Source of the DNA: a virus
Strand: one strand, 5' to 3'
Virus record (IMG/VR): IMGVR_UViG_3300032291_002461
Span: 1-30,306 of that record
Length of the DNA: 30,306 nucleotides
This document shows positions 1,926-22,980 of this stretch, piece by piece (position 1 is the first letter of the stretch; the number at the start of each line of letters is the position of its first letter). The notes beneath the pieces were generated by a model. That model saw nothing but the letters and a program-made list of their open reading frames with translations, was not told the origin of the DNA and made no database searches. The position numbers and the translations under genes are program-made.

Positions 1926-3215
1926 TTATGTTTTATCTATCGTTAAATTATACACATTTGCAATTTCAACAGCAACATTGGCAGGAAATTCTTGAGCTCT
2001 ATAATCATCACCAATTTGTACTGTTTGATAATTACCTGTGTTTGTTAATCCTACAATTGAATTTAACATACTTGTTCCTCTTTGATTTCCTGTTCCATTT
2101 ATATTATATCTTATTCTATAATTATCAGGAGAGTTTACAGTTAAATATCTAAGCCAAGTAGTTAAATTGTTTGAAAAAGTTGTTTTATCATACACCTGTA
2201 TATTACCTGTTGGAGTTATAAAAACAGGTACTACGGTATAATCAGGATCACTTCCTGTGTTTCTTTTATGTAAATAATAATTGTTAATTGTAATTGGTTG
2301 ATCTTGTGCTTCTGGTATACCACCAGCAGTAAATAAAGTTAAATCAGCTCTAGTATCTGTAAATACTGCAGTTGCTGGAGGATCTACTAATACTATTTGA
2401 CCTCTCATACCCCCGTGTAATTCACAATTATAATAATATGTTCCTGGCGCATAACCTGTAGTAACCCAAGTAATAGTTCCTACAGCAGAACCATTATTTG
2501 TTGTTCCTGTTGTTAAACCATTTGCAGGTGTGGTGGATGCTTCAGCTTTTATCCAAAAAGGGTGACCTGATGCGTTTAGAACAAATACTAATGTATCTCC
2601 TACAGTAGCGTTTACAGTAGGATTTGATCCTGATATATCTCCTGAAAAAGTATATGCACCACTACCAGCATTCGTTACGCTATAATTTCTTGTTATACCA
2701 ACAACTGGCTGAATAACAGCAGTATGATTAGCTAAAACAGTTGAAGTGGAAATTGAATACGTATTTCCTGTTAATGTAGATGCAGTTGAAGCAGAAGTTA
2801 TTAAATCTATTGCAGGGTGAAAAAAAGTATCTTTCATATCTTGTAAACTCATTGCTTGTATATTACCACCAGCTGTTAAATAAGCAGGCCAATCTGTAAG
2901 TGTACTTGTAGGTAAAGACAGTGACGATACTGTTTGTAAAATTTTTTGATATGATACTGTTACTAACTGAGGTTCTTGTGTTGTAGCTTCAGTTGGAAAT
3001 GCCGTATTTGTTTGTGATGTTGCTCCAGCGCTCCAACGAGTGTCGTTTATGGCTGTTAAATTTGAACCACTATTAGCTGTAACTGAAAGAGTAACTGTAG
3101 GATTTATAGACCATCTATAAGCAATATAATTTATAATTTGATTAATTTCACCACTAGATAAATTAGTTAAATCTCCTGTAAATGTGTTATAATATAAAGG
3201 TGTTCTAATAGCCAT
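1926..3215 (-). CDS. Virion-type protein with an embedded cupredoxin (type-1 copper) domain
   Basis: A 429-aa Ser/Thr/Asn-rich protein placed among fibre genes. Residues 1-160 and 285-429 look like phage structural sequence without a recognised family. Between about 176 and 278 lies a cupredoxin-like beta-sandwich. It has His218 in GHPFWI, a Pro-Gly-Thr-Tyr-Tyr-Tyr strand, then Cys264, His267 and Met270 in NCELHGGMRG. The C-x2-H-x2-M loop has the spacing of amicyanin, and the upstream His completes a type-1 copper ligand set. No signal peptide is present, so this is not a normal periplasmic electron carrier. A structural or binding role on the virion is the simplest reading. The start has a modest AGGT upstream. 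Confidence 0.8.
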   Translation of the reverse strand: MAIRTPLYYNTFTGDLTNLSSGEINQIINYIAYRWSINPTVTLSVTANSGSNLTAINDTRWSAGATSQTNTAFPTEATTQEPQLVTVSYQKILQTVSSLSLPTSTLTDWPAYLTAGGNIQAMSLQDMKDTFFHPAIDLITSASTASTLTGNTYSISTSTVLANHTAVIQPVVGITRNYSVTNAGSGAYTFSGDISGSNPTVNATVGDTLVFVLNASGHPFWIKAEASTTPANGLTTGTTNNGSAVGTITWVTTGYAPGTYYYNCELHGGMRGQIVLVDPPATAVFTDTRADLTLFTAGGIPEAQDQPITINNYYLHKRNTGSDPDYTVVPVFITPTGNIQVYDKTTFSNNLTTWLRYLTVNSPDNYRIRYNINGTGNQRGTSMLNSIVGLTNTGNYQTVQIGDDYRAQEFPANVAVEIANVYNLTIDKT

Positions 3216-3435: not shown

Positions 3436-4059
3436 TTATGTTAATATTAATTCTCTTATTTGAATGGCATTTCCAGTATCAGGAGCAGAAGTAAATATAC
3501 AGTTATTACCTACAACGCTATAATCTGTTGTTGGTCTTTGAATTATTCCATTTTCTGATACTATTATTGTGGCTGTAGATTGACCTACAGTTACACCAAA
3601 AGATGTTTGAGCACCGTCTCCTGTATAAGATCTAACGTTAAAGGTAACTGAAGCTAATGCACCAATATCAGCTCTAACTTCATTACCTGTTCTGTATTTT
3701 AAAGTGTTTCCATCAGCAACTAAAAATTTATCAGTATCAGTAGTTGCAAAAGTTAATCCTGTTAATATGTCAGATAAATCTGCTGAAATAGTTATAGTAT
3801 CTGTAGATACGACTGCAGTAATTCCAGTAGAGCCCGTTACGTTAACAACATCATTTGAACTTACTGTTGTTTGATTAAAAGCACTATCTCTAAAAATAAA
3901 ATCTCTTGGAGCAGCATAAGTTTCGTTAATAGCAGCAACAATACTTGTTTTATTTGAAGTAGATAGACCAGATAAATCTCCTACGTCTGTACCCAAAGAG
4001 TTAAACGTTGTTCTAAACGTATTAACTGTATCTGTTGTTGCAACTGTTCTAATAGGCAT
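3436..4059 (-). CDS. Fibre-like virion protein (207 aa)
   Basis: A 207-aa protein with typical fibre composition (Thr, Asn, Asp, Val, Gly). Residues 8-55 contain TDTVNTFRTTFNSLG and LSTSNKTSIVAAINE, a pattern common at the N-terminus of marine phage fibre proteins. The last 70 residues contain NVRSYTGDGAQTSFGV and a terminal strand pair ending in IQIRELILT. This resembles the short beta domain that closes many phage tail proteins. Its ATG overlaps the stop of the 72-aa gene by one base, suggesting coupling. Probably a tail-fibre or baseplate appendage component; exact place in the virion unknown. Confidence 0.75.
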   Translation of the reverse strand: MPIRTVATTDTVNTFRTTFNSLGTDVGDLSGLSTSNKTSIVAAINETYAAPRDFIFRDSAFNQTTVSSNDVVNVTGSTGITAVVSTDTITISADLSDILTGLTFATTDTDKFLVADGNTLKYRTGNEVRADIGALASVTFNVRSYTGDGAQTSFGVTVGQSTATIIVSENGIIQRPTTDYSVVGNNCIFTSAPDTGNAIQIRELILT

Positions 4060-4277
4060 TATTTTTTAATAACCTCTTTTAATAAATTTTTAATTTCAAA
4101 CAATTCTTGTTTTAAAATATTTATCTCTTTTATAGTACTTCTTATTTGATCGCTTTGTTGTTCTCTCATCTTCATTCTTTTCATATAAATTGTGTATTCG
4201 TTTTTAGATGTATTAACAATAGCATTTGTTCTAACATCTCTTTCTAAATTTTCAAAACCTTCCACTTTTAATTTCAT
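4059..4277 (-). CDS. Small coiled-coil protein (72 aa)
   Basis: A 72-aa basic protein. The N-terminus (VEGFENLERDVRTNAIVNTS) resembles a small conserved protein found beside fibre genes in T4-like marine phages. The C-terminal 30 residues (from about 45) form a likely coiled coil with hydrophobic heptads in IKEINILKQELFEIKNLLKEV. It is packed between the 2038-aa protein (1-base gap) and the 207-aa protein (1-base overlap). A role in oligomerisation or assembly of the neighbouring fibres is plausible but not shown. No signal or membrane segment. Confidence 0.75.
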   Translation of the reverse strand: MKLKVEGFENLERDVRTNAIVNTSKNEYTIYMKRMKMREQQSDQIRSTIKEINILKQELFEIKNLLKEVIKK

Positions 4278-4278
4278 A

Positions 4279-7200
4279 TTACAACGCTAATGCTATACCC
4301 CTTAAATCTCTAATAATAGGAGGATAAGAAGAATTAGTTCCTTTTAATACTATTTTAATTTGAAACGCTGTAAATTCACCTAATCCATTGATACTATATT
4401 TGTATTCTTTAAATGAACTATCATTTTCAGCAGGAGATACAGTATCATCTTCACTACCGTCAATATTAAAAGCATTCCAAGTTAAATCGTTAATATTTCT
4501 AACTTCATCAGCACCAGTTACTCTATAAAATACTTTTACTGAAGATGAAGTTCTTACATTTTGAGTTAGTCTTACATCTAATGCAGTTGACGCATTTTCT
4601 AACAATATAGGTCTAGTTACATATACTGCAGCTGATGATGTTCCTGATGAGTTAAAATCAGAAACAAAATTTGGCGTATTTGAAACTGTTGGATTATTTA
4701 ATCTATTTTGTACCGCAACCATACTCATTCTTGAGGTATCTAAAACAGGAGAAATTTTTGTATTTTCAGTAGTTAAAGTTAAAATATTAAATAATGATTT
4801 GCTACCTGACATTTCATTAGTTTCATTAATTGAACTTGCAATTAATCTAGGAGAAGTAAAATTAATGTTATCTGAAGGAGTTACATTGATTGCTTGACTT
4901 GATGATTCTAATAAGAATGATGTTTCTGTGCCGTGTATTGAACTTCCACTTGTTGTTCTTAAAGAGTATCCTATTCTAGTTCCTGGAACTGTCATAGTTG
5001 AAATATTTAAACAAGCAACATCAAATAATCTATTTTGTGTTGTTACAACAGAACTTCCTCCAACGTCACCAGTAGATGTTGCAGTACCAGCAGTAGTAAT
5101 ACTAAATGTATCTAAAGTTACATTTGAAATAGAAGTGTAAGTTCCATTTATTAGTGTATGAGCTATACCGTTATATGTTCCAGCAGGTACACCTGAAATT
5201 GTAACATTATTAGTTAAACTATGCATTCCGTGATTTCTACAAGTAACTGTAATAACACCAGAACCAGACGTTGTTCTTAAAGGGTTAAGATTTAATGTTC
5301 TTGTAGGTACAGTATCATTTACTAAAGTAACGCTACCACTTACGTTTTCAAATTCTGCTCTATTAATTTTAAATTTTATATCTTCCATTTGTTCAGCTGT
5401 CCAAGTTGAACCATTTTGAGATTTAAATAATACTCCAGCATAAGGATTTTCAGATATTGTTCTATTTGAACCAATTTGAGTATCTCCTAATCTTGCAACA
5501 AAAGCATTATAATTATTACAATCAGATAATACTACAAAACAATATTCTGTTTTTTCTTGTAAATACACAGGAGATGGGAAAGTAAATTTAGTTGCAACAC
5601 TTGCATCTTCACTAGTATTAACTGAAGATGGATTTAATGTTATTTCACCAAATGGTATTACAGTCCTAGAAGGATAACCGTTTACTACTTCTCTAATTTG
5701 TACTGTAATAGGAATATTTGTATCTTTAGATTGCAAATATAAATCTATTGAAGTAATGAATACTCCACCAGTATTATCTATTAAAAATGTTTGTGCAAGA
5801 GGATCATTCCAACCTATAATATCAGAAGTTTCTCTTGTTGATGTTCTTGTAATATTTCTAGTATCATTAACGTCAATTCTTACTAAACGTGGCTCTCTTG
5901 TTGATACAATTGTATTCTGTACAGTTTCTAAAGAACCTTTAGCTATATAATCTGCTTCAGCAGAAGTTTCAACATCTGTTGTTGAATTTGTAATTGAACT
6001 AGTTAATCTGAATACTCTTTGACCAGTTCTCCATCTTGGATTATTATTATTAGTAGAATCAGGAATACTAAAAGTACCTGATACAGAACCATTTACGTTT
6101 GTTATTAAAGGTCCTCCAAGAGCTCCTCCTGTAGGAGTTATGTAAGATGCAATACTTATGTTATCAAAATATGGATAAACTCTTGTATTTGGTTTCATTC
6201 TTGTAGCTGTAAAATTTATTACTCTACTTCTTATAAAAGGTATAAATGCTATATTTAATACTCTATCACCCAAAGCAGTTCTTACAACTTGAGGTACTAA
6301 AGATGTTCTAATACCTGTTCTTGTTTGAGAAACTTGTTGTGATGTTTCAATTGTTCTATCTCTTACAAGAGCTCTTCCAGCCCATCTTGTACTTTCGCTA
6401 CTAATTCTATCTGCTGAAGATCCTTGCCAAAAATCTTGCCACTCATTCCATACAGTATCAATTTCTACGCTATCTAAATTAGGATTACCTAGTGCTTCAA
6501 CCATTGTATCAAAAGCACCTCTTTCATTAACTAATAAATCAGGAACTCTATTTGTTTCTTTCCATTCATCGCCTGGAGGATCAAGTGCAACTGAACCTGC
6601 CCAAGTAAATATATTAAAGGGATTAACATTTAGATATTTACTAGCATAAGGTTGTTCTATTAAATTTACTTCTGTGTAAGGTAAAGTAATTAAATCTCCA
6701 GTTTTTTGATAATTAGAAGCTAGTCTATCAGCTGTTAAAATTGTAGTGTTTCCTGAACTTGTTGCTTCAATCAATTTTACAGATTCAGAATTAAACATTG
6801 GTCTAAGGAATCCACCAGCCATATCCATAGAAACTTTATAATCAAAATTACCTACATCGCCAATACCGTGACCCGTAAAATTATCTACAATAAATCCGTT
6901 TTTAAATCTGTCAAAACCTTCTGCATCTTGTATTTGTAAAGATTGTGCTTGTGTTTCTAGTAAAGATAATTGAGTATAATATTCTACATTTGATATTCTT
7001 TTTTCTAAACGACCAATATCTCTCATTGTATATCTTCGATTATCAATTTTTTCAATATCTATATCTGAAGTTTTTAATGATAATGTATAACTATTTAAAG
7101 CTAATGTAAATAAATGCATAGCATTATCTAAATTTTTAGGAAGTTGAGGAGTTAAAGAACTTGCTCCTTTAACAACTTTAAAATTACCATCTTTATCTAA

Positions 7201-10200
7201 AAATATTTTATCAAATCGTTTTAAATAATATTCTAAATCAGTAGTAATATCAGAATTGAATTGAACAGGATCTACGGCAGATGCTCCCAATCCGTTGTAT
7301 TGTCTTAATTGACCAGAACCAACAACAATAGATGCATCATCAACTCTAGGTCTAAAATCTAAACAATCACGTAACTGATATGTTAATCCTGAAGTATCTG
7401 AAGTATAAGAAGGGATATCCTTATAGTCAATAACACTTGTATAAGAATCAACAGAAAAATAATCTCCAGAACCGTGAGAAAAATAATCAAAGTCTATTAA
7501 TAATCTACCGGTAGGATTAAGAGAACCTGGTTTTAATTTAAGTCTACCTATATCATAAAAATTATCTCTTTGTCCAGTATCTAAATCAAATCTTGATTTA
7601 ATATCAGTATCAGAAGATGTAGCATTTGTAGAAAAATTTGCTGACATATAAACTGCATTAATTCTGTATACATCTGCTTTACTTAAACCTATTAAACCAG
7701 ATTGTATTGTTGTTTGAGTTGAAATAGATAAACTAGAATTTAATACAAGCGTTTTTGTTTTTTCATTAGCAACAGTACGTGATATTGTGGCAACTATTTT
7801 TATTTTATGTCCTGCAAAATTTGCACCAAAATCTAATGATAAAGTTTTTCCAGTAGGAGTACCTGTTAAAGTAAATATTGGATCGCCTTCGTGATTATTT
7901 CCTGATAAACTAAAAATATCTCCTATATTTCCAGAAGGACCAGCGCCTAGATTTATAATAGAAACAGTGAAATCTCTTTCAGATAATCCTGTAAATGTTT
8001 CATTTGTTCCTGCAGTTATTTGAGCATCACCATTTGCAGATAACAATGCTATAAAATTTCTTCTTACGTAAAAATTTGTATCTGTAATATTATTATTAGA
8101 TGATGTTTTTAAAGTTTTGATAGTTTCGTATGGTAACTTAAATATTGAAATGTTTTTATTAGATCCAATTAATTTTGATCTTCTTCTTACACCAACTGTT
8201 TTTGTTGACACATCAGATGCACCTACTGCAGTTGAAAATGTTAAACTAGTATTAGATGTTACAGACTCAACAATTTTAGTTATAATAGTTCCATTGTCAG
8301 CTGTAAAATGTATTGTATCTCCTAGTCTTAATTCTGTTAAAAATAATGTTCCATAACCAGTAACTACTGTTCCATTGTTTGCAATTGAAAACGTTCCAAA
8401 TAGTTGGTAATTATCTCCAAAAGCTGCACTAGTTTCTGTATCAGCAGTATAGTTTATTCCTGCTCCACCTGTCATACCAATTTGTTTTACAGAAGAAAAA
8501 TCAAAGTTTTGTACACCGTGGAATCCTAAAACATTATTTTGTACTGTTGATGTTACTCCAGATGTTGACCCTGTAATAGTTTCTCCATTAGTAAATATTC
8601 CTAAAACGTTAGCTAATACAACAACACCGTGATTTGCAGTTCCTCCAGAACTAAATGATGTAACATTTACAGGACTAGTTCCATTAGATGCATATAATTC
8701 AAAAGTATTTGCTGTTGGATTTTTTACTGTATAAACAGCAGCAGTAAGAACTGAAACTGAATTAATTGACCAAGTACCTCCTGAAATCTCAACTTGCATA
8801 CCTTCTTTAAATGTATGAGCTGTAGAAGTAACAATAGAAGGATTTGCAATAGACATATTGCTAATTACAGCCGATTTGTATGATGAAATAGTTTGAACGT
8901 AACCTGTAGCTCCAGATGTACTTCCTGTAATTTTTTCTCCGTTAGTAAATGCGACTGCTTTAGATACGTTAAGATGTGTAAACATTTCTATATCAAAAAG
9001 ATAATGTTTATAAACGTTACTTGTTAAAGATGATGTTGCAAATAAATTAGAACTTGCAATACCATTATTTAATTCAAAACCTCTAGACTTTGCTCTACCT
9101 ATTTGAGGTACAGCCACACCAGATGTAGATTTTAATGAACCTCTTACATCAGCTCCTGTAGGACTTAAATATGATAATCTATTATTAGTTGTACTGGTGT
9201 CGTATAAATTTACATTTTTAAATGTTTCAGTTTCTCCAGGATTGTATGTAATATCTGGAGCATTATAAACATTAGAAACATTTACATAACTTTCTAAATC
9301 AAATCTAGTTTTAAAATTATTAGATGTACTAAAATCTCTTGCCTTATCAACATCTAAAAACGTTGTACCTATTGTTTCAATTTCATAACCTTTAACATAA
9401 GCTTTACCAGGACCAATTGCAGCTACTAATTTTGTTTCTACCCCACCATCACCAGATGAGTAAATACCTCTATTAGTTCCTGATAATAAATGTTCTCTTA
9501 AATCTATATCAAAATCTTTTACACTGTAGTCTCCTGATTCGTCATACGTTCTTCTTGCAAACGTATCTTCTAAAACAGAATATTCAGTTGTTCTAATTTG
9601 ATTTTGTAGTATTCCATTTTCTAATCTTAATAATTCTATAAAGTTTGAATCATCAACAGAATTTAAAGCTCTTTTTGATAGTGTTAATGATATTTTAAAT
9701 CTGTGTGCACCTGGAGCATTAAAATTAGATGTGCCTGCTGCATTATCAACTAGTGTACCATCTTCGTTAGCAGTTATAAATGATTCTACTATATCAACAC
9801 CAATACGATAACTTGGAGTATTTGTATATTTGTCTAATACTATTGTTTGATCTAAAATTGTAACGTAATATCCATTAATGTAATAAACACCTTTTGCAAT
9901 TGATGCAGCTGAACCTGTTGCAGTTGTGTTAACTGTTACTGTTTGAGCAGCTGAACTTACTGTACAATTACAAATTTCACCATTCGTAAATACAAAACTA
10001 GTATTACTAGTTCCAGTTTTAATATACTTAACGTAAAGAGTATCAGGATCAGTACCAGTACTTGCTACAGCATTAACAACTTCTGCTTGAACTCCTGAAG
10101 TTACACCTGTTAAAATTACACCGATATATGAATTTATATTACTTAAAGATTTAGCACTTAATTTAATAGCATAGTAATTTAAATCGAACGCTACTTGACC

Positions 10201-10395
10201 AGGTATGACCATTGCGCCTTTTTTAAAGACGTGATCAGAAAATTTTTCAATCTGATTTTGTAATATTGTTTGTGACTGTGTTAATTCTCTCGCTTGTACT
10301 GCAAATGATGGTCTAAACAGTACTCTATGAAAATTTTTATTTTCATTAAAATCATCATAGTATGGAGAAAGATTAAAGTCAGTTGGACTTGGCAT
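4279..10395 (-). CDS. Giant DUF4815-type baseplate/fibre protein (2038 aa)
   Basis: A 2038-aa structural protein and one of the two giants of the region. The N-terminus carries the DUF4815-family signature: PYYDDF at 12-17, FRPSFAVQARELTQSQ at 27-42, LQNQIEKF and KKGAMVIPG at about 59-66. Proteins of this type in T4-like marine phages are baseplate-attached fibre or adhesin components. The middle contains several short beta modules of the form FTNGExITGSTSGxT. The C-terminal third is beta-rich with DPLAQTFLID and ends in RDLRGIALAL. A Shine-Dalgarno AGGAAG lies just upstream of the ATG. It follows gp8, where T4 carries gp9 to gp12, so it may take over the fibre-linking role (inference). Confidence 0.85.
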   Translation of the reverse strand: MPSPTDFNLSPYYDDFNENKNFHRVLFRPSFAVQARELTQSQTILQNQIEKFSDHVFKKGAMVIPGQVAFDLNYYAIKLSAKSLSNINSYIGVILTGVTSGVQAEVVNAVASTGTDPDTLYVKYIKTGTSNTSFVFTNGEICNCTVSSAAQTVTVNTTATGSAASIAKGVYYINGYYVTILDQTIVLDKYTNTPSYRIGVDIVESFITANEDGTLVDNAAGTSNFNAPGAHRFKISLTLSKRALNSVDDSNFIELLRLENGILQNQIRTTEYSVLEDTFARRTYDESGDYSVKDFDIDLREHLLSGTNRGIYSSGDGGVETKLVAAIGPGKAYVKGYEIETIGTTFLDVDKARDFSTSNNFKTRFDLESYVNVSNVYNAPDITYNPGETETFKNVNLYDTSTTNNRLSYLSPTGADVRGSLKSTSGVAVPQIGRAKSRGFELNNGIASSNLFATSSLTSNVYKHYLFDIEMFTHLNVSKAVAFTNGEKITGSTSGATGYVQTISSYKSAVISNMSIANPSIVTSTAHTFKEGMQVEISGGTWSINSVSVLTAAVYTVKNPTANTFELYASNGTSPVNVTSFSSGGTANHGVVVLANVLGIFTNGETITGSTSGVTSTVQNNVLGFHGVQNFDFSSVKQIGMTGGAGINYTADTETSAAFGDNYQLFGTFSIANNGTVVTGYGTLFLTELRLGDTIHFTADNGTIITKIVESVTSNTSLTFSTAVGASDVSTKTVGVRRRSKLIGSNKNISIFKLPYETIKTLKTSSNNNITDTNFYVRRNFIALLSANGDAQITAGTNETFTGLSERDFTVSIINLGAGPSGNIGDIFSLSGNNHEGDPIFTLTGTPTGKTLSLDFGANFAGHKIKIVATISRTVANEKTKTLVLNSSLSISTQTTIQSGLIGLSKADVYRINAVYMSANFSTNATSSDTDIKSRFDLDTGQRDNFYDIGRLKLKPGSLNPTGRLLIDFDYFSHGSGDYFSVDSYTSVIDYKDIPSYTSDTSGLTYQLRDCLDFRPRVDDASIVVGSGQLRQYNGLGASAVDPVQFNSDITTDLEYYLKRFDKIFLDKDGNFKVVKGASSLTPQLPKNLDNAMHLFTLALNSYTLSLKTSDIDIEKIDNRRYTMRDIGRLEKRISNVEYYTQLSLLETQAQSLQIQDAEGFDRFKNGFIVDNFTGHGIGDVGNFDYKVSMDMAGGFLRPMFNSESVKLIEATSSGNTTILTADRLASNYQKTGDLITLPYTEVNLIEQPYASKYLNVNPFNIFTWAGSVALDPPGDEWKETNRVPDLLVNERGAFDTMVEALGNPNLDSVEIDTVWNEWQDFWQGSSADRISSESTRWAGRALVRDRTIETSQQVSQTRTGIRTSLVPQVVRTALGDRVLNIAFIPFIRSRVINFTATRMKPNTRVYPYFDNISIASYITPTGGALGGPLITNVNGSVSGTFSIPDSTNNNNPRWRTGQRVFRLTSSITNSTTDVETSAEADYIAKGSLETVQNTIVSTREPRLVRIDVNDTRNITRTSTRETSDIIGWNDPLAQTFLIDNTGGVFITSIDLYLQSKDTNIPITVQIREVVNGYPSRTVIPFGEITLNPSSVNTSEDASVATKFTFPSPVYLQEKTEYCFVVLSDCNNYNAFVARLGDTQIGSNRTISENPYAGVLFKSQNGSTWTAEQMEDIKFKINRAEFENVSGSVTLVNDTVPTRTLNLNPLRTTSGSGVITVTCRNHGMHSLTNNVTISGVPAGTYNGIAHTLINGTYTSISNVTLDTFSITTAGTATSTGDVGGSSVVTTQNRLFDVACLNISTMTVPGTRIGYSLRTTSGSSIHGTETSFLLESSSQAINVTPSDNINFTSPRLIASSINETNEMSGSKSLFNILTLTTENTKISPVLDTSRMSMVAVQNRLNNPTVSNTPNFVSDFNSSGTSSAAVYVTRPILLENASTALDVRLTQNVRTSSSVKVFYRVTGADEVRNINDLTWNAFNIDGSEDDTVSPAENDSSFKEYKYSINGLGEFTAFQIKIVLKGTNSSYPPIIRDLRGIALAL

Positions 10396-10403: not shown

Positions 10404-11873
10404 TTAAAATTCAATAATTAGTTTAATATTTTCAGTTTGGTCCGCTGCTCTTGTAATTGGTGCTCTGTTTTCAATGTAAATAACATCACCTTTATCAACA
10501 TCTAATTCTGAAGCAGCATAACCATTAGAAAACGTTATACTATCAGCTGTTTCACTAGCAGAAGCACTTGGAGTAGCTGTTGCTCCAGATGTTGCGCCAG
10601 TAATAATGTTTACTCCACTAAATGCAACTAAATTTCCACTAGCATTAATACCACCATCTACAAATCTTGTTTGAACATAATGTAAAATTCTATTAACAGA
10701 GTCCCATTCTACAACTCTACCTACAGCACCTGTAGTTCCTTGAGTAATTTTTTCGTCAACTTGAAAAGTTCCTGGTGTAGGTGAAGCAGCAATTCTAATA
10801 GCTTTTGTTGTTCTTAATGTAGATGATGTTGCAACATTTCCTAGTGATTCTGGGTCTTTTAATAATACTATTTTTCTAAAATCGTTTTCAGTTGTAAAAT
10901 CTCCAGTGTTTGCTGATTCTGTTCCTTCTAAATTAATATTCAACATTACAAAAAATCCACCTAATTCTTTTACTGCATTATAACCGTGTCCACCTTTAGG
11001 TTCAATAATACAATCTAATTCTGCTCCTGTTAAGAATCCAGAACTTGCAGTATTAATATCAGCGTTTCTTACTGAAGCAAAAGTATAACCAGTACCTGCA
11101 CTTGTAACTGTTACACCTGTAACAGCTGTTCCTGAAATTACTACTGTACAAAATCCACCTGAACCATCTCCTCTTAAAGGAATACCTGCATAAGTGCCGT
11201 TTGTTCCTCCAGTACCACCATTTTTAATTTTAATTATATTTACTCCTCCATCTACTGCTGCACTTTGTACTGTACTGTTTGTTTGAACAGCCATAAAATC
11301 TGTAGATAAAAAATTTATTTGTTGAGAGGCACTTAAAGTGTACATAAATTTCCATTTATAACCATCGCCTGTTGAAAGTATAGAAGTTGAAGTTCCTGTA
11401 GGTTCAACTGTAGAAGCAACGCCATTATTATTATCTAAACATTTATATACGTTGTATGCGGAATTTAAAACATAAAAAGTTGAGTCAAATAAATTTGAAG
11501 CACCACTTGTTGATGTTAAAGTAGTTGTTGTTCCTGTTATTCTATTACCATAATCATTTCTGTACATATCATAAATCGTACCCACAGTCCAATTTCTTCT
11601 AGGAATAACATAACTTACGTTTGAAGCCGAAATTTTTTTAGCAGCTAATAAATCATCAAAAGTATAAAGTTCTTCTGTAACACTGTCTGCAGGTACAATA
11701 GGAGAACTATCAGAACCCGTATTGTCTGTTCTTAAATCTGCTCTTGTATATGTTCCCCAAGATAAAGGAGCACCAATACCTAGATAATAAGCATTAGGCG
11801 CAGCTTCAGAAAAAGATTCTACAAACTGTTCACTATTATGTATTCTAAATTTATTTGTTATAATTGCCGGCAT
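10404..11873 (-). CDS. gp8: Baseplate wedge protein, gp8-like
   Basis: A 489-aa protein matching the T4-like gp8 wedge subunit as it appears in marine phages. Evidence includes the N-terminal PAIITNKFR, YYLGIGAPLSW (29-39), VIPRRNWTVGTIYDMY (89-104), YVLNSAYNVYKCLD (134-147) and GDGYKWKFMYTLS (169-181). In T4, gp8 is a dimer in each baseplate wedge and is 334 aa. The extra length here lies in the C-terminal half, which carries two inserted-looking modules (KITQGTTGAVGRV and IITGATSGATATP). It is separated from the upstream 1822-aa gene by 6 bases and from the downstream giant gene by 8. Gene order supports the wedge assignment. Confidence 0.8.
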   Translation of the reverse strand: MPAIITNKFRIHNSEQFVESFSEAAPNAYYLGIGAPLSWGTYTRADLRTDNTGSDSSPIVPADSVTEELYTFDDLLAAKKISASNVSYVIPRRNWTVGTIYDMYRNDYGNRITGTTTTLTSTSGASNLFDSTFYVLNSAYNVYKCLDNNNGVASTVEPTGTSTSILSTGDGYKWKFMYTLSASQQINFLSTDFMAVQTNSTVQSAAVDGGVNIIKIKNGGTGGTNGTYAGIPLRGDGSGGFCTVVISGTAVTGVTVTSAGTGYTFASVRNADINTASSGFLTGAELDCIIEPKGGHGYNAVKELGGFFVMLNINLEGTESANTGDFTTENDFRKIVLLKDPESLGNVATSSTLRTTKAIRIAASPTPGTFQVDEKITQGTTGAVGRVVEWDSVNRILHYVQTRFVDGGINASGNLVAFSGVNIITGATSGATATPSASASETADSITFSNGYAASELDVDKGDVIYIENRAPITRAADQTENIKLIIEF

Positions 11874-11879
11874 ATTTTT

Positions 11880-14800
11880 TTAAGCTTGTGCTTCTCCCCA
11901 ACGTAATAATAAGTTTGTATTAACAGCAGTACCAGAAGCTTTGTATATATTTATCGCCAAAACATCGGGACCATTTGGAAATGTTCCTCTACCACCTAAT
12001 GTAGTAGTTGTTAATTCTTTTAGTTTTGATAGGGATAAACTGTTACTTTCTCCCGAGTTTGCAATAAACGAAAATACTGTTTCACCTGGTAGTGCGTAAG
12101 CAGGTTGGAAAAATTGGAACGTAATTGTAGATCCAGCAGTTACTGCAGAAACAGCGTTTTGTGTAAATGTTACTCTATAGTATTGTGTTCCACCATATGT
12201 AAGTGTAGCTGATATTGAAGCTACTTTTGTATTTGCAGGGAATTTTGCATCTACAACAGATGTTCCTGCAACTGCTCCGCTAGCGTCTAAAGTTGCTTTT
12301 GTGAAATATAAAATACTTGTACCTGATGCAGCGTTACCAGCAAAAGTAAATGCAATTGATGCGCCAGAATTGGTAGAAGGCAATGATCTATTAAAATTAA
12401 CTTGTGTATAAAATCCAAAATCTGTTATTGAAGTTATAACAGCATTATTATATCCAGCAGTTGTAATTGATGATCCTACAACTATTCCTGTTGTGTTCCA
12501 ACTTGCTGAAGTAAAATATAGTGTTGAACTACCATTACCTGTGTTATAAGCAATTGTTGCTGAAGCTGTTAAAGCAGCCGTAGTAGTTCCTGTTTGAGTT
12601 GTTGTACCCGCTCCAGATTTCCAAGTTACAGAACCTCCTGATGCAATTTGAGCAAAACTAGGTTGTCCTCCTTGAGCAACACCTTGTAATGTTGTCCAAG
12701 ATACTGAAGCTGGATCAATAGGATAATTTTGTGGATTTAAAACACCTTCTACAATAATTGCACCCGTACTACCTGAATCTGAAGTTATTTCAATACCTTC
12801 AAGTAATAGTTGAGCTCTATTTAATAATTCTCTTTCTCCTAGATCACCTATAATTGCGTTTGATACGCTAGGTGCTAATCTAATTAAAAATGCAGTTTGT
12901 TTAGTAGTTGTTGCTGATAAGTTTGTTTGAGCATAGTTAAAAATATATCCTCTATCTTCATCAAATTCTCCATCAATTAAATATGCAGAACCCCAATGAG
13001 ATATTGCCGGACTACAAGTATTTGTTACGTAAATTACTCCTGCATTATCATTGTGTGAAGCAGCGGCTCCAGCAGAGTATGAACGTGTTGCTCCAGCATT
13101 AAAATTAGTTAATGTTGTACCTCTTACACAACCCGTTAATGTATTTGCTGTAGCATTTTTACCTGTATATGAAATTAGCTCATTATCAATATATACAACA
13201 CCTGAAGTTGGTAAACCTGTAACATCTTCCACTGTAATAGTTGTTACTGAACTATTAATAGCTCCATCTAGTCTAGTACTTGGTATTTCATTTAAAACTT
13301 CATATCGAACTGGTGCGTTACCTGTTCTCATATAAGCTTCAGTATTTAAATTGTTTCCTTTTAATCTGTGACAGAATACATAATTACCGTTAGGACCTCT
13401 TAGCATCCAATCTATAAATCCAGCACCATACCAGCTAAATTGTATACCTATCATTTGCATTTTAGTAGGATCTATTACATATCCACTTGGTCCTGTACCG
13501 TCACACTTATCTAAATTCCATTCTGATTGAGGTATAATTAAATCTTGTACTTTACAAATTGAACCACCAGATACATTCGATACACCTCTAAAATCAGGAG
13601 TAACAGACATTGAAGTTTGACTTGTAATATTAGTTACCACGTGTGTCATACCTTTTATAACAACTCTATCTCCAGCTTTTAATTGATCATTAAATCTTGT
13701 ATTTGTACCTGTAATTGCATTTGAGTTTGTGTTAACTGCAATAGTACCGCCTAATTGAAATGTAGATGATCTTCTTCCTACAGAAAATTCTTCTCCATCG
13801 TATTGCCAAAATATTCCATTTTGATCATCATAAGGACCTGATCTTACAACAGCCCCTTTCCATTTATATAAATTCATTTTAGCATCAGCACTTAATTCAG
13901 CTGTAGAATTAGAAAGAACATTAGTTGCAATAACTGTTAAAGTTCTTTCATCAATAATACTTGATACAACATAGTGTCCGTCATAACCTGGCGTAATAAC
14001 ACCTTCTATTCTAATTTCAGCACCTACTTGGCATCCGTGGTCAGTATCGTCTGTAACGAGCGTAATTAAAGAATTTACTGCTGTTCCTGATGCAGTAACA
14101 CTTCTTAATTGATAACTAGGAGCAAAAAGAGCACCTGTATTATACATAGCGCCTTTTCCTGATTGATAACGAATATATTTTTTACTTTGACGAATTGCTT
14201 GACCTCCATGCTGAGGACCTCCAGTACCTAATTGAACTCCACCATCAAAAGGTCTATGTACAAAAAATGCATCTGGTCTTACGTAAATTGTTCCTTGAAT
14301 ATTTGCAGCACCTACAGAAGAATCATTTAATAACGTTAAAATGGTACCTGATGCTCTTGCAGTGTATCTTATTCTAGTAGAACTTTGAATATCATTAACT
14401 ATAATAGGACCAGAAGCTAAATTATGATTATTTGAACCAGCATCAGAACTAACAACAGATAATAAAGACATACCAGGGACAAATCCGTGTGGTGATGCAA
14501 AATCAACTTGAACTACAGCAATTGAAGCATAAGACGCTGTAGCAGTTGCTGCAGAAGCTAATATAGTAGGAGCACTTAATGCTAATGTTGAATATATAGG
14601 AATTTGACTACCTCTAATAGCTGTTCCAGTTGTAGTAAAAGTAGTTACAGCACCTGTACTTACACCACTTACTGTAAGTGCAACATCATTCGTAACATCT
14701 AATCCTTCGCATTGAGTTCCTAATACTTTATATCTTTGTCCTATAACATAACCACTACCCCCAGCAGTAACTGCGGAAGTATATAATCCACCATTTCTTG

Positions 14801-17348
14801 TTATATTAACAGAAGCACCAGTAGAACCATTACTTGTTGCATAAGGAATTCTACTTGAATAGCTTGCAGTACCTGCAACAGCTAATCCAGAAACTATTGT
14901 TACTGTAGCAATACCTGAACCAGAAAGTGTTGCCACTCTTAATATTAAATCATTTCCTAAAACTGCAGTTCCCGTTATTGTAACTGACGTTACAGCACCT
15001 ACGCTTGTAGTAGCTATTCTTATTGTAGCATCATTTGTAGGAGTAGTTCCATCTAAAGAAGCTCCTGAACATAAAAATCTTGTGCCTAAAAAGTAATTAC
15101 TTCCGCCGTTATTAATTGTTGGAACAGTATATACTCCAGCATTTCTATTAATATTAATATCAAGTCCTGATGCTAATGTAGAAGTATTTGTACCAAAAAC
15201 TGCAGTATAAGCACCTGAACCATTTGCAGTTCCACCAAAACCAATTGTTGTAATAGCGCCGCCTGTAGAATCATTCGTAACACCTGTAATAATAATACTT
15301 AAATCGTGTGTTGGAGAAGTACCTCCTAAACTTGTTCCTGGTATATTAATTGCATCTCCTATAAAATATCCAGTACCTGCATTGTTTATCGTTACAGTAT
15401 CATACACTCCTGCAGTTTTATTTACGTTAAAAGTTGCACTTGTTCCTGTTGATATAATTTCAGTTAATGTTACAGAATTATATGTTTCATTATTATTTTC
15501 AACTCCACCTAAATCTGAACCCAAAATTTTTAAAGTGTCTGCTACAGCATAACCTGAACCCGGTATAGGAATTCCCGCAATACTATAAGAACCACCTGCT
15601 CTTGAAATGTTAAATCTAGCATTTACTCCAGTTGATAAAACTTCTGAATATGCTACAGTTGTGTATGTTTGAACATCTCCTTGAAGTGATGTTGTTAAAG
15701 CAGAACTTAAAGATAATGTATTTCCTACTATGTTAGTAATTATAGCTTGTGTTCCTGTTCCATTATTAATAGCCATTCCTGGAACTAATCCCGATACAGT
15801 TGAAAGTGTAACTGATGATGAACCATTTGCAGCATCTGAAGCAACGTAATTTGTTGAAACTGTTCCTCCTGTTCCTGAATTTGAAGTAACTTGTGTACCT
15901 ACTGTTATATAAGCAGCAGATGAAGTTGTTGAAGATGAAGTTATAGGAGCGCCACTTGGTGGAACTGCTCCTGTAAAAGTTAAACTTGTAGCACCTAGAG
16001 GCGCTGCTAATATTGTTGAAAAAGAACCACTTGAACCATTTGAAAATATTGAATATGTAGGATTACCTACTCCTGCTCCAGTATAAAATCCTGCTTCTCT
16101 TAAAAGAGTTGTTGAAGTTACTACTGTTTGTCCACTTGAAGTTCCAACTTTTGCTTTAGCGTAATAAGTAAATGAAGAAGAAGTTGGTATACTATTTACA
16201 ATAAAACTTCCTTCAGCTCTTGAAAATCCTAAAGTAGACGGAGATAATGCTTTAATTGTAAAAGGTTGTCCTACACTCCATCCGTGCGCTCCTTGAGTAG
16301 TAACAGTAATAATTGAAGGTCCAACTCCAGCACTTGTAACAGAGGCATCAGTTGTAACAGACAATACATTTTTTTCTGTACCTGGTATTTCGTAAGTAGA
16401 GGGATATCCTCTTTGTGTTGCAATTGCTTGCCATTTAGTAGGTTGTAATCCATATTCAAAGTCAGCGTCAATCATCGCTTGAGGTCTTGCAACTCTCATA
16501 CGCTCAATTGCATCTGTTCCAAAATCGTAAGGTCTTACAATCATTTCAGCATTTTCTTCAAATATTTGTAAAATATCAGAAGTTGCCATTGCATCAGTAT
16601 TGTATTTTAAATAAATTGTTGTTGTACCATTATCAACTGTTAATGCATTAGGAAAGTTTACAGAATTTGCAGCTGTGAAAGTAGTTGATGCTCCTTTTAG
16701 AGGATCACCAAAACTATAAAGTACTTCATTATCTGTAACATTTGTAATTAATAATAAATCATTTAAATCTACTTTTCCTATTAATTCTATAGAACTAATT
16801 ACGTTAGGAGATAGAACAGGTAAACTAGATAATCCATTTGTTATAGTATCTGTGATTGTTGTAAATCCAGTAGTAATTTTTGCAGTTGCGCCTGCTTCTG
16901 CTGTTGTAGCAGAATTTATATTTTGAGTAGTCATTACAGGACTTTGTAATGTAGGATATATTGTATTTGTTAAAATATAATTATTGATAATATTTCTACA
17001 GTAAGTGATATAAGTAGTTTCAGGAACTCTTGTACCAGAAATTATAGGAGTTGCACCTACCCAATATGTTGCAGCTTTTGTTCTAGTCGAAGCGTTACCA
17101 TTATATCGTAAATCATATATTGCTGCTTCTATAATTGCATCAATATCATTTTGTAATGCAGCACTTGAAAAAACATAACCAATGTATGGAGCGTTACCAG
17201 CCAGCTTTTGCTGATTAACATATGCCTCAACTTCATCTTTTATAAATTCTTTATTTGCTACAATTTTTGCATATGCAATAGGATTTCTATTACTAGCTAA
17301 AGGTATACCAGGTTGAAAGTAATAATTTTGACGTAATTTTTTTGCCAT
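11880..17348 (-). CDS. Giant fibre-like virion protein (1822 aa), paralogue of the 1058-aa protein
   Basis: An 1822-aa beta-rich protein. It shares with the 1058-aa protein (23949-27125) a core with LLLITNVT, IVRP, the exact stretch MIDADFEYGLQPTKWQ (about residue 290), TLGFSRAEG and FTYYAKAKVGT. Also shared are FDGGVQLGTGGPQHG, NTEAYMRTGN, RGTFPNGPDVL and the same last eight residues LRWGEAQA. Compared with the paralogue it has an extra N-terminal region and a large insertion at about 565-910. That insertion is built of at least four beta repeats (pattern NxxRxGGxYxxxxxxGGxGYxxG). A further insertion lies near 1600-1750. Likely a tail-fibre or adhesin component; related proteins in marine T4-like phages are annotated only as virion structural proteins. 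Confidence 0.8.
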   Translation of the reverse strand: MAKKLRQNYYFQPGIPLASNRNPIAYAKIVANKEFIKDEVEAYVNQQKLAGNAPYIGYVFSSAALQNDIDAIIEAAIYDLRYNGNASTRTKAATYWVGATPIISGTRVPETTYITYCRNIINNYILTNTIYPTLQSPVMTTQNINSATTAEAGATAKITTGFTTITDTITNGLSSLPVLSPNVISSIELIGKVDLNDLLLITNVTDNEVLYSFGDPLKGASTTFTAANSVNFPNALTVDNGTTTIYLKYNTDAMATSDILQIFEENAEMIVRPYDFGTDAIERMRVARPQAMIDADFEYGLQPTKWQAIATQRGYPSTYEIPGTEKNVLSVTTDASVTSAGVGPSIITVTTQGAHGWSVGQPFTIKALSPSTLGFSRAEGSFIVNSIPTSSSFTYYAKAKVGTSSGQTVVTSTTLLREAGFYTGAGVGNPTYSIFSNGSSGSFSTILAAPLGATSLTFTGAVPPSGAPITSSSTTSSAAYITVGTQVTSNSGTGGTVSTNYVASDAANGSSSVTLSTVSGLVPGMAINNGTGTQAIITNIVGNTLSLSSALTTSLQGDVQTYTTVAYSEVLSTGVNARFNISRAGGSYSIAGIPIPGSGYAVADTLKILGSDLGGVENNNETYNSVTLTEIISTGTSATFNVNKTAGVYDTVTINNAGTGYFIGDAINIPGTSLGGTSPTHDLSIIITGVTNDSTGGAITTIGFGGTANGSGAYTAVFGTNTSTLASGLDININRNAGVYTVPTINNGGSNYFLGTRFLCSGASLDGTTPTNDATIRIATTSVGAVTSVTITGTAVLGNDLILRVATLSGSGIATVTIVSGLAVAGTASYSSRIPYATSNGSTGASVNITRNGGLYTSAVTAGGSGYVIGQRYKVLGTQCEGLDVTNDVALTVSGVSTGAVTTFTTTGTAIRGSQIPIYSTLALSAPTILASAATATASYASIAVVQVDFASPHGFVPGMSLLSVVSSDAGSNNHNLASGPIIVNDIQSSTRIRYTARASGTILTLLNDSSVGAANIQGTIYVRPDAFFVHRPFDGGVQLGTGGPQHGGQAIRQSKKYIRYQSGKGAMYNTGALFAPSYQLRSVTASGTAVNSLITLVTDDTDHGCQVGAEIRIEGVITPGYDGHYVVSSIIDERTLTVIATNVLSNSTAELSADAKMNLYKWKGAVVRSGPYDDQNGIFWQYDGEEFSVGRRSSTFQLGGTIAVNTNSNAITGTNTRFNDQLKAGDRVVIKGMTHVVTNITSQTSMSVTPDFRGVSNVSGGSICKVQDLIIPQSEWNLDKCDGTGPSGYVIDPTKMQMIGIQFSWYGAGFIDWMLRGPNGNYVFCHRLKGNNLNTEAYMRTGNAPVRYEVLNEIPSTRLDGAINSSVTTITVEDVTGLPTSGVVYIDNELISYTGKNATANTLTGCVRGTTLTNFNAGATRSYSAGAAASHNDNAGVIYVTNTCSPAISHWGSAYLIDGEFDEDRGYIFNYAQTNLSATTTKQTAFLIRLAPSVSNAIIGDLGERELLNRAQLLLEGIEITSDSGSTGAIIVEGVLNPQNYPIDPASVSWTTLQGVAQGGQPSFAQIASGGSVTWKSGAGTTTQTGTTTAALTASATIAYNTGNGSSTLYFTSASWNTTGIVVGSSITTAGYNNAVITSITDFGFYTQVNFNRSLPSTNSGASIAFTFAGNAASGTSILYFTKATLDASGAVAGTSVVDAKFPANTKVASISATLTYGGTQYYRVTFTQNAVSAVTAGSTITFQFFQPAYALPGETVFSFIANSGESNSLSLSKLKELTTTTLGGRGTFPNGPDVLAINIYKASGTAVNTNLLLRWGEAQA

Positions 17349-17349: not shown

Positions 17350-18024
17350 TTAAGAACCTAATGCCACAGATAAAACATACAATTGATTTTGAATATTACT
17401 TGATACACCATCTAAGTATTCAAATTCTGTATTTGAAACATTTCCACTTCCTATAGAAGAAGCATTAATGTTTGTAATTGTATTGTTTGATCCATTAATT
17501 GTTTTATTTGTTAAAGTTACTGCATTATTTGCTGTAACTATACCAGTTGCTCCAGTTAATAAATTTAATTCTGTTGATGTTGCTGTAAGAGTTGCTCCTC
17601 CATTTATAACAGGAGAAGTTAAAACTTTATTAGTTAGAGTTTGATTACCTGTAAGAGTAACAACACTATTATCAACTGAAACTGTAACTGTATCTGTTGA
17701 TGATGATATTGTATTAATACCAGTACCAGCTAATATATTTAATGTGTCTCCACTATTTAATAGTTGAGCTGCACCAGAAGTACCTTGTACAAATAGTGAG
17801 TATGTAGCTGCCACAGCACCAGGTTGAAATCTAGCATTTGCTGCATCATATATTAAAACATTATTAGCTGATGCACCAGCAACGTTTATTTTTAAATTAC
17901 TACCGTCACCTAAATTGTTATATAGTTCTGTAAAATTAGAATTGATTATATTACCGCCAGCACGTAGTGTTGTACCTGTACCGTCGTTTGCTACACTTCC
18001 AATATTAACTGATTGTTTAGACAA
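17350..18024 (-). CDS. Short tail-fibre protein with a TTG start
   Basis: A 224-aa fibre protein. The N-terminal motif NIGSVANDGTGTTLR...NSNFTELYNNLG is a well-known leader of T4-like marine fibre proteins. It fixes the start at a TTG codon (18024-18022), with GGAA 8-11 bases upstream. The middle has the repeats TLTNKVLTSPVI and TLTNKTINGSNN, which are common shaft sequences. The C-terminus is NIQNQLYVLSVALGS. Two late promoters lie just upstream. The downstream 1822-aa gene begins 1 base after its stop, so the pair is a cassette that mirrors the 221-aa/1058-aa pair. Confidence 0.8.
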   Translation of the reverse strand: MSKQSVNIGSVANDGTGTTLRAGGNIINSNFTELYNNLGDGSNLKINVAGASANNVLIYDAANARFQPGAVAATYSLFVQGTSGAAQLLNSGDTLNILAGTGINTISSSTDTVTVSVDNSVVTLTGNQTLTNKVLTSPVINGGATLTATSTELNLLTGATGIVTANNAVTLTNKTINGSNNTITNINASSIGSGNVSNTEFEYLDGVSSNIQNQLYVLSVALGS

Positions 18025-20684: not shown

Positions 20685-22544
20685 TTAATTGTTACTAGGT
20701 GTTGTTGTATAACCTATACCTGCATCAGCTGAACCTCCTAAAAAAGTATCTGGTTCAACAATGATTGTAGAATTTGAAATATCAATATTAATAATTTGAT
20801 CTCTTACTGGAACTATGTCATTAGAACTTGGCTTAATAGTTAATTCAATAGCTGTAGATAGTTCTCCTCTAATATCCTCAACATCTGATACGTTTAATGA
20901 ATTTAAAGTAATTTGACCTGTTAAATAATTAATCGTACCCTGTGGTGTTGCATTATAAATTTTTACTGAACCTGTCAATCTGTATCTTCTTACATTTCCT
21001 AAACCATCATCATCTAAAAAATAAACATTTGTACTATCTCCATATATTTTAAAACCACTTGATTCTAAAATACCACCATTTAAAGCATTATATCCTGCAA
21101 CTGGATTATATGCTGGGTTTCTAAAGTAAATATCGTATCTAGTTGAAGATTCTAATATGGGTGTAAATGTTTTTCTTATTTTTAATGTAGTAATATTTGA
21201 TACAATACTCGTATCAGCATCATCTATCAATCTTAATATTTTTGAATATCTAAAAATACTGTCAAATTTTTGTAAAGTACTATTATTATAATTTGTTAAT
21301 GATGATACTATATCTGTTTTTAAATTTTCAGCTGTTTTAGTAGTTGACTTTTGATCATATTTAACATATGACGTTAATAATATTGTAGTAGTTTCGGGAT
21401 CAACAATTACAGGTCTAACAGACGCAACATTATATTTTTTTAATTGAGTAACAATACTTGCTTTAGTAGCCGATGTTAATGATGAACCAGACAATGGTTT
21501 AATTGCAATTTTAACTGTACCATAAACAGGATTTTCTTCATCTTCTCCACCCCAAGCACTTACAGATTGAGCATTTGGATAAATTGATTTAACAATTGTT
21601 TCATAATCAGTTGTAGTTACTGCTCTATTTTGTGCTGCATAATTTAAAGGAGCATTGAAACGAATTGACTCTTTACTTTCGGCAGAAGTTCCACCTTGTG
21701 CAACTGAATTTACTGTTATAGTTAAATTACTAAATCCACTTATAGTAGAAGTTGCAGAAAATGTAGCTGCTCCATTGGCTCCTGTAGCATTTGTAACGAT
21801 ATATTCTAAGATGACTATGTTACCATCTATTAAAGATGTACCTATTATTCCATCACCAAAATAAACTTCAAATTTACCATCTTCTGCCTCTTGTAAAAAA
21901 TATGCTTTTGTTAAATTTGAAACGTTTTGTAATCCATTAGCTAATGAATATGTAAATGTAGTTGTATCAACTGAACTATTTTGTACTTTAACAACAAGTG
22001 TTGATGTATCAGCTAAAGAACTTGGTATTACAAATTTTTGATCTGGGTCATTTGTATCTACCACATATCTAAATGAAACAGGAGTACCTTCATATATTGA
22101 TACGTTTGAAAAATTATAAACTCCATTGATAGGAGTAATTGTTATATCCGAATTTGTTATAAATTGATATCCAATACCATCTACAGTAGATGTAAATGTA
22201 GTTCCTTTTGTCATAGTAATTGAATTACCTGTTCCATCATTGACAGCTATATTAATATTTGCAATAGGTGTTCTTACTGAAGTTGGTGTGTAACCTAACA
22301 TCTTTGCTAATGACACAATATTTTTTCTAATGTCAGCACTATCTAAGTACATTTCATTAGCTAACATATTAGCATTAAAACCTAGGTAGTGTGTATTGTA
22401 AGCAAGTGTATCTAAAAGAATTGAAAATCCAGAACCTTCAAAATTATAATCTTGGAATTCTGATTGACTTTGTAAAAATGTTTTTAAATTGGCTTTTATA
22501 CTGTCAAAATCAAAATCTGATATTTCTAATTTATTACTTGCCAT
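20685..22544 (-). CDS. gp6: Baseplate wedge protein gp6
   Basis: A 619-aa homologue of the T4 gp6 wedge subunit (660 aa in T4), of the baseplate J family. gp6 dimers form the inner ring of the baseplate and drive the sheath-contraction switch. The N-terminus is characteristic: LKTFLQSQSEFQDYNFEGSG (21-40), LLDTLAYNTHYLGFNANMLANEMYLDSA (48-75), then IVSLAKMLGYTP. The mid part has the J-like RAVTTTDYETIVKSIYPNA and the W-G-G-E-D-E acidic turn. It lies 1 base after gp25, as expected for the wedge operon. Confidence 0.92.
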   Translation of the reverse strand: MASNKLEISDFDFDSIKANLKTFLQSQSEFQDYNFEGSGFSILLDTLAYNTHYLGFNANMLANEMYLDSADIRKNIVSLAKMLGYTPTSVRTPIANINIAVNDGTGNSITMTKGTTFTSTVDGIGYQFITNSDITITPINGVYNFSNVSIYEGTPVSFRYVVDTNDPDQKFVIPSSLADTSTLVVKVQNSSVDTTTFTYSLANGLQNVSNLTKAYFLQEAEDGKFEVYFGDGIIGTSLIDGNIVILEYIVTNATGANGAATFSATSTISGFSNLTITVNSVAQGGTSAESKESIRFNAPLNYAAQNRAVTTTDYETIVKSIYPNAQSVSAWGGEDEENPVYGTVKIAIKPLSGSSLTSATKASIVTQLKKYNVASVRPVIVDPETTTILLTSYVKYDQKSTTKTAENLKTDIVSSLTNYNNSTLQKFDSIFRYSKILRLIDDADTSIVSNITTLKIRKTFTPILESSTRYDIYFRNPAYNPVAGYNALNGGILESSGFKIYGDSTNVYFLDDDGLGNVRRYRLTGSVKIYNATPQGTINYLTGQITLNSLNVSDVEDIRGELSTAIELTIKPSSNDIVPVRDQIINIDISNSTIIVEPDTFLGGSADAGIGYTTTPSNN

Positions 22545-22545
22545 C

Positions 22546-22980
22546 TTATCTTAATCTTTCTAAAAATGTTTGCACTTCTACCGGTTCTTGTGTTCCTACA
22601 ACATAAAACATAATTCTTAAATCATAAGAATTTTTATCATAATCAGGTCTTGCTAATATTTGAACTAATCTTATTCTAGGTTCAAAATTAATTAATACTT
22701 CTTGTACCTTTCTTTGCAAATTCAATGCAGTTAACGGCGTCATTGGTTCAAATAACATCGCTCTAACATTAGAACCTATCTCTGGATGGAAAGGTCTTTC
22801 AAAGTGTGATGTGTTAATTAAGTTACGAACACTTCTTTTAACAGCTTCAACATCAGTCAATTTATTAACATCATTTGTTACTAAATTACGACCGAAATCT
22901 AAATCTAAATCTTTATATAATCTAGTAGCTCGTTTACTTTTGTTTAAGGAAACTGTACTTGATGCATCGTAATTTGGCAT
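22546..22980 (-). CDS. gp25: Baseplate wedge protein gp25
   Basis: A 144-aa homologue of T4 gp25 (132 aa), which contacts the first sheath ring and belongs to the gp25/type VI TssE family. It shows RNLINTSHFERPFHPEIGSN (52-71), AMLFEP (74-79) and the conserved Glu-Pro-Arg in NFEPRIRL (98-105). The start lies 7 bases after an exact TATAAATA octamer (22995-22988). No convincing Shine-Dalgarno is visible. It is followed by gp6 with a 1-base gap. Confidence 0.92.
   Translation of the reverse strand: MPNYDASSTVSLNKSKRATRLYKDLDLDFGRNLVTNDVNKLTDVEAVKRSVRNLINTSHFERPFHPEIGSNVRAMLFEPMTPLTALNLQRKVQEVLINFEPRIRLVQILARPDYDKNSYDLRIMFYVVGTQEPVEVQTFLERLR

Follow-up and report, generated by a model that had tools for sequence, protein, structure and literature searches.

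The question raised by this locus is what a complete set of type-1 copper ligands is doing inside a protein encoded by a phage, and whether the site would hold copper in the virus particle. The DNA analyzed here, called the window, is the whole stretch of 30,306 nucleotides at positions 1 to 30,306 of the IMG/VR virus record IMGVR_UViG_3300032291_002461, and its G+C content is 31%. A first-pass annotation made from the sequence alone had read a cupredoxin inside one of its gene products, here called P0001. The reading frame and the 429 aa length that it gave were borne out, and we add the strand, which the annotation had left out and which is minus (Table 1).

Table 1. Features of P0001 and of the surrounding tail and baseplate genes, in positions of the window.
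Feature	Position	Strand	Basis
P0001, carrier of the inserted cupredoxin, 429 aa	1926-3215	minus	ORF and translation; 80 relatives measured, 30 aligned with P0001
Carrier N-terminal part, residues 1-169	2709-3215	minus	Conserved in insert-free relatives
Inserted domain (predicted cupredoxin), residues about 170-280	2376-2708	minus	Present in the window and L002-L005; model pLDDT 95.2
Carrier C-terminal part, residues 281-429	1929-2375	minus	Conserved in insert-free relatives
Codon for His218 of the GHPF motif, putative first ligand of copper	2562-2564	minus	His in 121 of 125 rows
Codon for Cys264, the sole Cys of the protein, putative ligand of copper	2424-2426	minus	Cys in 120 of 125 rows
Codon for His267, putative ligand of copper	2415-2417	minus	His in 120 of 125 rows
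Codon for Met270, putative axial ligand of copper	2406-2408	minus	Met in 121 of the 124 rows that have a residue in this column
Small virion structural protein (phrog_473)	4059-4277	minus	E 1.2e-19; two small genes before P0001
VrlC-type large protein (phrog_358, DUF4815)	4279-10395	minus	Mosig gene at the same place annotated VrlC
Baseplate wedge protein (phrog_438)	10404-11873	minus	E 1.1e-145
gp9-type protein (T4_gp9_10_N), 224 aa, without cupredoxin domain	17353-18024	minus	PF07880, phrog_677
gp6- and gp25-type baseplate wedge genes	20685-22980	minus	phrog_219 and phrog_261

Reading the translation places His218, Cys264, His267 and Met270 exactly where the first-pass annotation had put them, and the stretch C264-E-L-H267-G-G-M270 has the C-x2-H-x2-M spacing of the amicyanin sequence aligned to it, the motif residues of which we take to be amicyanin's copper ligands. 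When the sequence of P0001 was shuffled, a pattern of the form H-x35..60-C-x2-H-x2-M arose in 4 of 200,000 shuffles. A structural model of the domain, predicted from 125 aligned sequences (pLDDT 95.2, pTM 0.88), has eight strands. Its best Foldseek match was rusticyanin (E 7.0e-6, TM 0.58 by query length, rmsd 4.8), and VIA-align matched it to residues 24-137 of Hyphomicrobium nitrite reductase, i.e., a cupredoxin domain (Z 10.9), and to rusticyanin (Z 10.5; 95 residues at rmsd 2.4), two-domain laccases ranking just below these. In the model, His50 (which is His218 of P0001) sits in the loop that follows the fourth strand (40-46), and Cys96, His99 and Met102 sit in the loop that joins the last two strands (90-95 and 103-109); these are the two loops that the ligands of type-1 copper occupy in known cupredoxins. 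The cupredoxin fold proposed in the first-pass annotation is in this way upheld by structure prediction, as is its complete ligand set, and going by the model we regard residues about 170-280 as almost certainly a cupredoxin domain.

Which residue of the domain meets the first His ligand of a known cupredoxin depends on the aligner used. His218 meets the first His of pseudoazurin in one alignment and stands two residues before the first His in the alignments to amicyanin, plastocyanin and one nitrite reductase (2vmj); GHPF is paired with the GHSF of rusticyanin under one of two gap settings, and hhalign, run with the domain alignment against a rusticyanin fragment, aligned the C-terminal loop only. 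In the predicted model, His218 lies in the right loop. A model of full-length P0001 was poor in the insert (pLDDT below 50 for residues 171-278, a region covered by four rows), and a PDB search with that full-length model gave no match at E <=0.001.

Sequence profiles reach the same family from a distance. The Pfam Copper-bind family PF00127 was matched at E 0.0096 (16.8 bits) with the whole protein and at E 0.00076 (20.3 bits) with the domain, both under the cut-off of 21.2 bits; 54 of 125 module members matched it at E <=0.01. Searches of P0001 with phmmer against pseudoazurin, amicyanin and plastocyanins gave weak matches (E 0.19-0.95), and a profile of 125 relatives reached copper nitrite reductase, auracyanin, rusticyanin and plastocyanin, at best with E 7.6e-5. 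Among the models of single cupredoxin types, amicyanin (TIGR02657) scored 17.0 bits against a cut-off of 110.2, and rusticyanin (TIGR03095) was matched at E <=0.01 by 24 of 125 members, the domain of the window not being one of them. P0001 was rejected as a plastocyanin on its score with the PetE model TIGR02656 (20.3 bits, cut-off 87.85). The domain thus has the predicted fold of the type-1 cupredoxins (rusticyanin, pseudoazurin, amicyanin, plastocyanin and Hyphomicrobium nitrite reductase), with His/Cys/His/Met in two loops, at about 17-25% identity in structural alignments. It differs from them in lying inside a tail-cassette protein, and the module as a whole differs in having Pro after the first His (124 of 125 rows).

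To see how the domain sits in its carrier, we took relatives of P0001 from an IMG/VR scan and measured the best 80 of 275, the frames of which all run to a stop. The cupredoxin insert is present in four of these 80 (L002-L005, 429 aa each). Sixty-six of the best 80 are 305-326 aa long and have nothing at that place, as is also the case for the relative in the cultured pelagiphage Mosig (Mosig_00097, 306 aa), which is the same carrier beside VrlC but without a cupredoxin domain. In an alignment with 30 relatives, the insert site immediately precedes a DTRAD stretch that is conserved. In P0001, the segment of residues about 170-280 forms a discrete insertion into one loop. The remaining 10 of the best 80 (L006-L015) are 386-393 aa long and carry a different insert of about 75-80 residues at about residues 185-270, close to the cupredoxin insert site, and foreign domains are thus tolerated in this loop region. 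Among the members of the window's group, the amino-acid sequence of the insert has changed as fast as that of its flanks or faster (dN 0.023-0.054 for the insert, 0.003-0.026 for the flanks), and in one pair the insert had dN > dS on few changes, none of them in a ligand.

The first-pass annotation had also taken the flanks of the domain for fibre sequence, and this reading was not supported: two insert-free relatives (one of them in the case of Pfam) gave no PHROG or Pfam match better than E 0.042. The PHROG tail label of P0001 most likely comes from the cupredoxin domain, since the insert-free relatives lack any convincing match, and P0001 meets phrog_677 only at positions 204-410 of 412. 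The N-terminus of phrog_677 was not reached by P0001, nor did P0001 match PF07880, the gp9/10 N-terminal anchor. Identity of P0001 with gp9 was rejected because it is without the gp9 N-terminus and the window has its gp9 in a separate gene. At 12 of the best 80 of 275 loci, the cupredoxin module stands at the end of a neighboring tail-fibre-like frame, beside an insert-free relative of P0001. We would like to note that the insert-free carrier may itself consist of three similar segments of about 100 residues. The hhalign probabilities for these internal repeats are only 22-36%; the P values are 4e-4 to 1e-3, versus 0.37-0.6 for three column shuffles of one segment.

The genes around P0001 are those of a tail. 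Read along the minus strand, the order is gp25 and gp6, the gp9-type gene, the phrog_438 gene, the VrlC-type gene, the phrog_473 gene, two short genes (one with tail-fibre matches) and P0001, and this order places P0001 in a baseplate/tail cassette. The gp6- and gp25-type genes mark the cassette as one of T4-like type, judging by their PHROG matches, and the gp9-type protein scored 33.7 bits with PF07880 (cut-off 25) and matched the phrog_677 N-terminus at E 1.6e-19. In Mosig, the gene adjoining VrlC, which is the counterpart by position of the window's phrog_438 gene, is annotated as gp8. The gp6-type protein is 64.9% identical to that of pelagiphage Mosig and 55.1% identical to that of HTVC008M; by these identities the window phage reads as a T4-like marine myophage related to both, and its host was probably a SAR11-type bacterium. 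The tail and baseplate setting proposed in the first-pass annotation is therefore supported by the PHROG matches and by the gp6 identity to pelagiphages, and membership of this gene cassette makes it very likely that P0001 is a component of the virion.

Other genes of the window are worth recording. Two proteins of 1822 and 1058 aa (11880-17348 and 23949-27125) both match phrog_5838 (virion structural) and look like paralogues. A PAAR-motif protein adjoins gp25 (22998-23297) and is, we presume, the tip of the tail spike. Two genes for iron-type oxygenases, one with an aspartyl/asparaginyl hydroxylase match and one a putative 2OG-Fe(II) oxygenase, lie at 170-850 and 29208-29789, and a Staphylococcal-nuclease-like protein, the start of which resembles a signal peptide by eye, lies at 28679-29110. 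The window contains no tRNA gene and no Rfam match at gathering scores.

If the site binds metal, its ligands should be kept or lost as a set, and this was examined across the module. From 170 distinct copies (161 with the motif, four fragments and five without ligands), 142 near-complete copies were retained, with L082-L099 left out; 130 remained after near-duplicates were removed, and 124 were aligned with the window. Six divergent first copies (L193, L199, L211, L212, L225 and L227), none of them among the motif-less copies, were left out of the alignment. All four ligands, H, C, H and M, are kept in 120 of the 125 rows (75 of the 79 viral rows and 45 of the 46 cellular ones). The five exceptional rows read HDLL, QSGM, TSNQ, LAVA and RNF- at these positions, i.e., each has lost three or four ligands together while keeping the fold, and such joint loss is predicted by a metal site and not by a mere scaffold. 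The YY-x-C loop is near-invariant in the module. The close homologues L002-L005, in which the first-pass annotation had foreseen that ligand loss would tell against its reading, keep all four residues.

Most relatives in the 125-row alignment were gathered by scanning with patterns of which GHPF or YYxC formed part (one scan returned at least 80 loci), and the alignment therefore overstates how well the first His and the Cys are conserved. Two controls address this. Among the 27 rows that lie away from the places reported by the scans, 22 are complete, a smaller share than in the whole alignment, and the other five are the same exceptions; one of the 27 is L002, which is near-identical to the window. 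The second control used gp9-type genes gathered with the N-terminal 298 residues of Syn33 gp9 alone. Here, 78 of the best 80 of 557 loci have HP and CxxHxxM, the other two ending at contig ends, and all 51 distinct complete domains from these best 80 keep the motif. The 80 genes are the closest of the 557, at 67-100% identity to the query, so gp9 was sampled narrowly. A chance motif in P0001 was ruled out by the shuffles, by the conservation over 125 rows and by the gp9 set gathered without the motif.

The first-pass annotation saw a single unusual phage, but the module recurs in many marine phage records. A tblastn search with one module member matched 353 of 50,697 phage records, a count that includes isolates of one species and duplicate accessions and in which the ligands were checked for a subset. 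Nearly all of the 353 are cyanophages; two are pelagiphage records and one is an Actinomycetia phage. The ligand motif was seen in gp9 of Syn33, ACG-2014d and S-SM1, in two Prochlorococcus podoviruses, in a tail fibre-like protein of P-SSM2, and in proteins annotated as peptidase S8 or subtilisin-like. The T4-GC519 proteins of P-HM2 and S-BM3 and a like protein of MED4-213 hold one or more copies in carriers of about 1,830-2,650 aa, much larger than P0001, and proteins of this type are annotated as Ig-type, peptidase S8 or hypothetical. In S-BM3 the T4-GC519 gene comes after GC112; in the window P0001 comes after the phrog_473 gene with two small genes between, and from gene place GC112 and phrog_473 appear to correspond. 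Carriers range widely in length, and the domain takes up very different places in them. In cellular genomes the module was found at 50 loci, many of them in marine Bacteroidota proteins that resemble lipoproteins by eye, at their starts, with the module C-terminal (e.g., L186 and L207). A tree of 135 domains left the insert of the window unplaced among mostly viral copies and did not show a donor.

In T4, gp9 is the connector between the baseplate wedge and the tail fibre. The cyanophage gp9 proteins (Syn33, S-SM1 and ACG-2014d; phrog_677, T4_gp9_10_N) have the same module and ligand motif as P0001, but there the module is the C-terminal domain and in P0001 it is an internal insertion. The N-terminus of Syn33 gp9 scores above the cut-off of Pfam T4_gp9_10_N, and because this end belongs to the T4 gp9/10 family, the module would be at the other, presumably fibre-facing, end. 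Judged from these sequences, the predicted cupredoxin module appears to be a mobile one that marine tailed phages attach to proteins of tail type, its most regular site being the C-terminus of gp9.

The window itself has no cupredoxin match better than E 0.1 beyond P0001. To compare gp9 genes, we used the contigs of 15 of the 80 loci, namely the four with the insert and eleven longer insert-free ones chosen for their length. On the four insert-bearing contigs, the gp9 frames are 228-231 aa long (224 in the window) and have no cupredoxin match within them; one of these contigs has a second clear copy in a 306-aa frame, and one has a weak partial match. On the eleven insert-free contigs, the gp9 frames are 387-610 aa long and in four of the eleven the gp9 frame contains a cupredoxin match; the available records of the other seven have no cupredoxin match. 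A divergent copy that has all four ligand residues lies in the gp9-type tail fibre gene of Mosig. These comparisons suggest that the module is able to pass between tail proteins, although the insert-bearing phages are one lineage.

We think it probable that copper occupies the site in the particle. Against this stands that P0001, which begins MAIRTPLYYN, shows no obvious signal for export, whereas type-1 copper proteins usually receive their metal outside the cytoplasm. The site would most likely take up copper after folding, either inside the infected cell or, once that has lysed, in the seawater. With the metal bound, the GHPF loop and the C-x2-H-x2-M loop would be locked into one rigid hydrophobic patch, and the copper end of the domain would be its working face, docking to a tail-fibre protein or to a molecule of the host surface. 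Soluble cupredoxins dock around their exposed His ligand. On balance, we favor P0001 being a conserved tail/baseplate-cassette protein that has received a cupredoxin domain by insertion and is one carrier among several of a mobile tail-protein module, for which docking is the most likely role. That the role is docking rather than electron transfer is a preference we hold tentatively. Of the roles raised in the first-pass annotation, stabilization of a fibre and attachment to a host molecule are equally compatible with what was observed.

The alternative to be taken most seriously, though we consider it unlikely, is a borrowed fold, in which the domain is a beta-sandwich for display or adhesion that is metal-free in the particle, like Ig-like tail domains. 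Phage tails often carry decorative beta-sandwich domains, the module-bearing protein of P-HM2 is annotated with the Ig-type family PF07686, and five copies have lost their ligands and yet persist. A mere scaffold would be expected to lose its ligands independently, however, whereas the full set survives in 120 of 125 rows and three or four ligands are missing from each of the rest; moreover, the motif is kept in 78 of 78 complete gp9-type copies (from the best 80 of 557 loci) that were gathered without it. The first-pass annotation had itself named a borrowed fold; one without copper is made less likely by the joint loss of ligands. It is rather improbable, and to a slightly greater degree, that zinc or some other metal occupies the site, which then does no more than stabilize the fibre: His/Cys/His/Met sites can take other metals in vitro, but the H/C/H/M set and the near-invariant YY-x-C loop resemble the type-1 copper proteins in sequence and predicted fold.

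As a further alternative, an electron-transfer center or redox switch would exchange electrons with a redox protein of the host surface or periplasm, and so trigger tail contraction or sense a living cell. The ligand set is that of electron carriers, and the closest folds include rusticyanin; redox use is nevertheless not implied by ligands alone, the carriers differ widely in size and domain position, and we know of no partner. We consider this reading improbable, to about the same degree as the presence of another metal. Least of all do we expect an auxiliary metabolic cupredoxin made for the infected cell. Cyanophages do carry petE, the plastocyanin gene (PMC3037559), but the domain in P0001 is fused inside a tail-cassette protein and scores 20.3 bits against the 87.85 of the plastocyanin model, so that a counterpart of cyanophage PetE is very improbable here.

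Extended from P0001 to the module as a whole, the docking reading becomes more speculative still. It is possible that many marine T4-like phages, cyanophages above all, carry type-1 copper centers at gp9 or nearby, that copper sets a docking face there, that infectivity is copper-dependent, possibly with a redox or copper trigger, and that the module moves between tail proteins. If a conserved copper site at the tail connector is real, copper would be part of how marine viruses attach or fire, infection would be tied to trace-metal chemistry, and a function would be gained for a domain now recorded as hypothetical, Ig-type, peptidase or tail connector. Cupredoxins have long been known, but a cupredoxin with complete ligands as a standing part of phage tail proteins is apparently new, in that searches of the open-licence PMC literature turned up, among the papers listed, none that describes a phage tail protein with a cupredoxin or a copper site.

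Two kinds of divergent copy were also seen. Five alphaproteobacterial proteins (L193, L199, L211, L225 and L227) and one from a gammaproteobacterial MAG (L212), of about 430-450 aa, each have two cupredoxin modules, the first of them divergent, and no evident export signal. In Syn33 (L230, 4286 onwards) and S-SM1 (L237, 15618-19778), the baseplate wedge gene after gp9 has a weak divergent match, with HPM followed by YYYC or YYHC and then H and M, which is perhaps a second cupredoxin subfamily.
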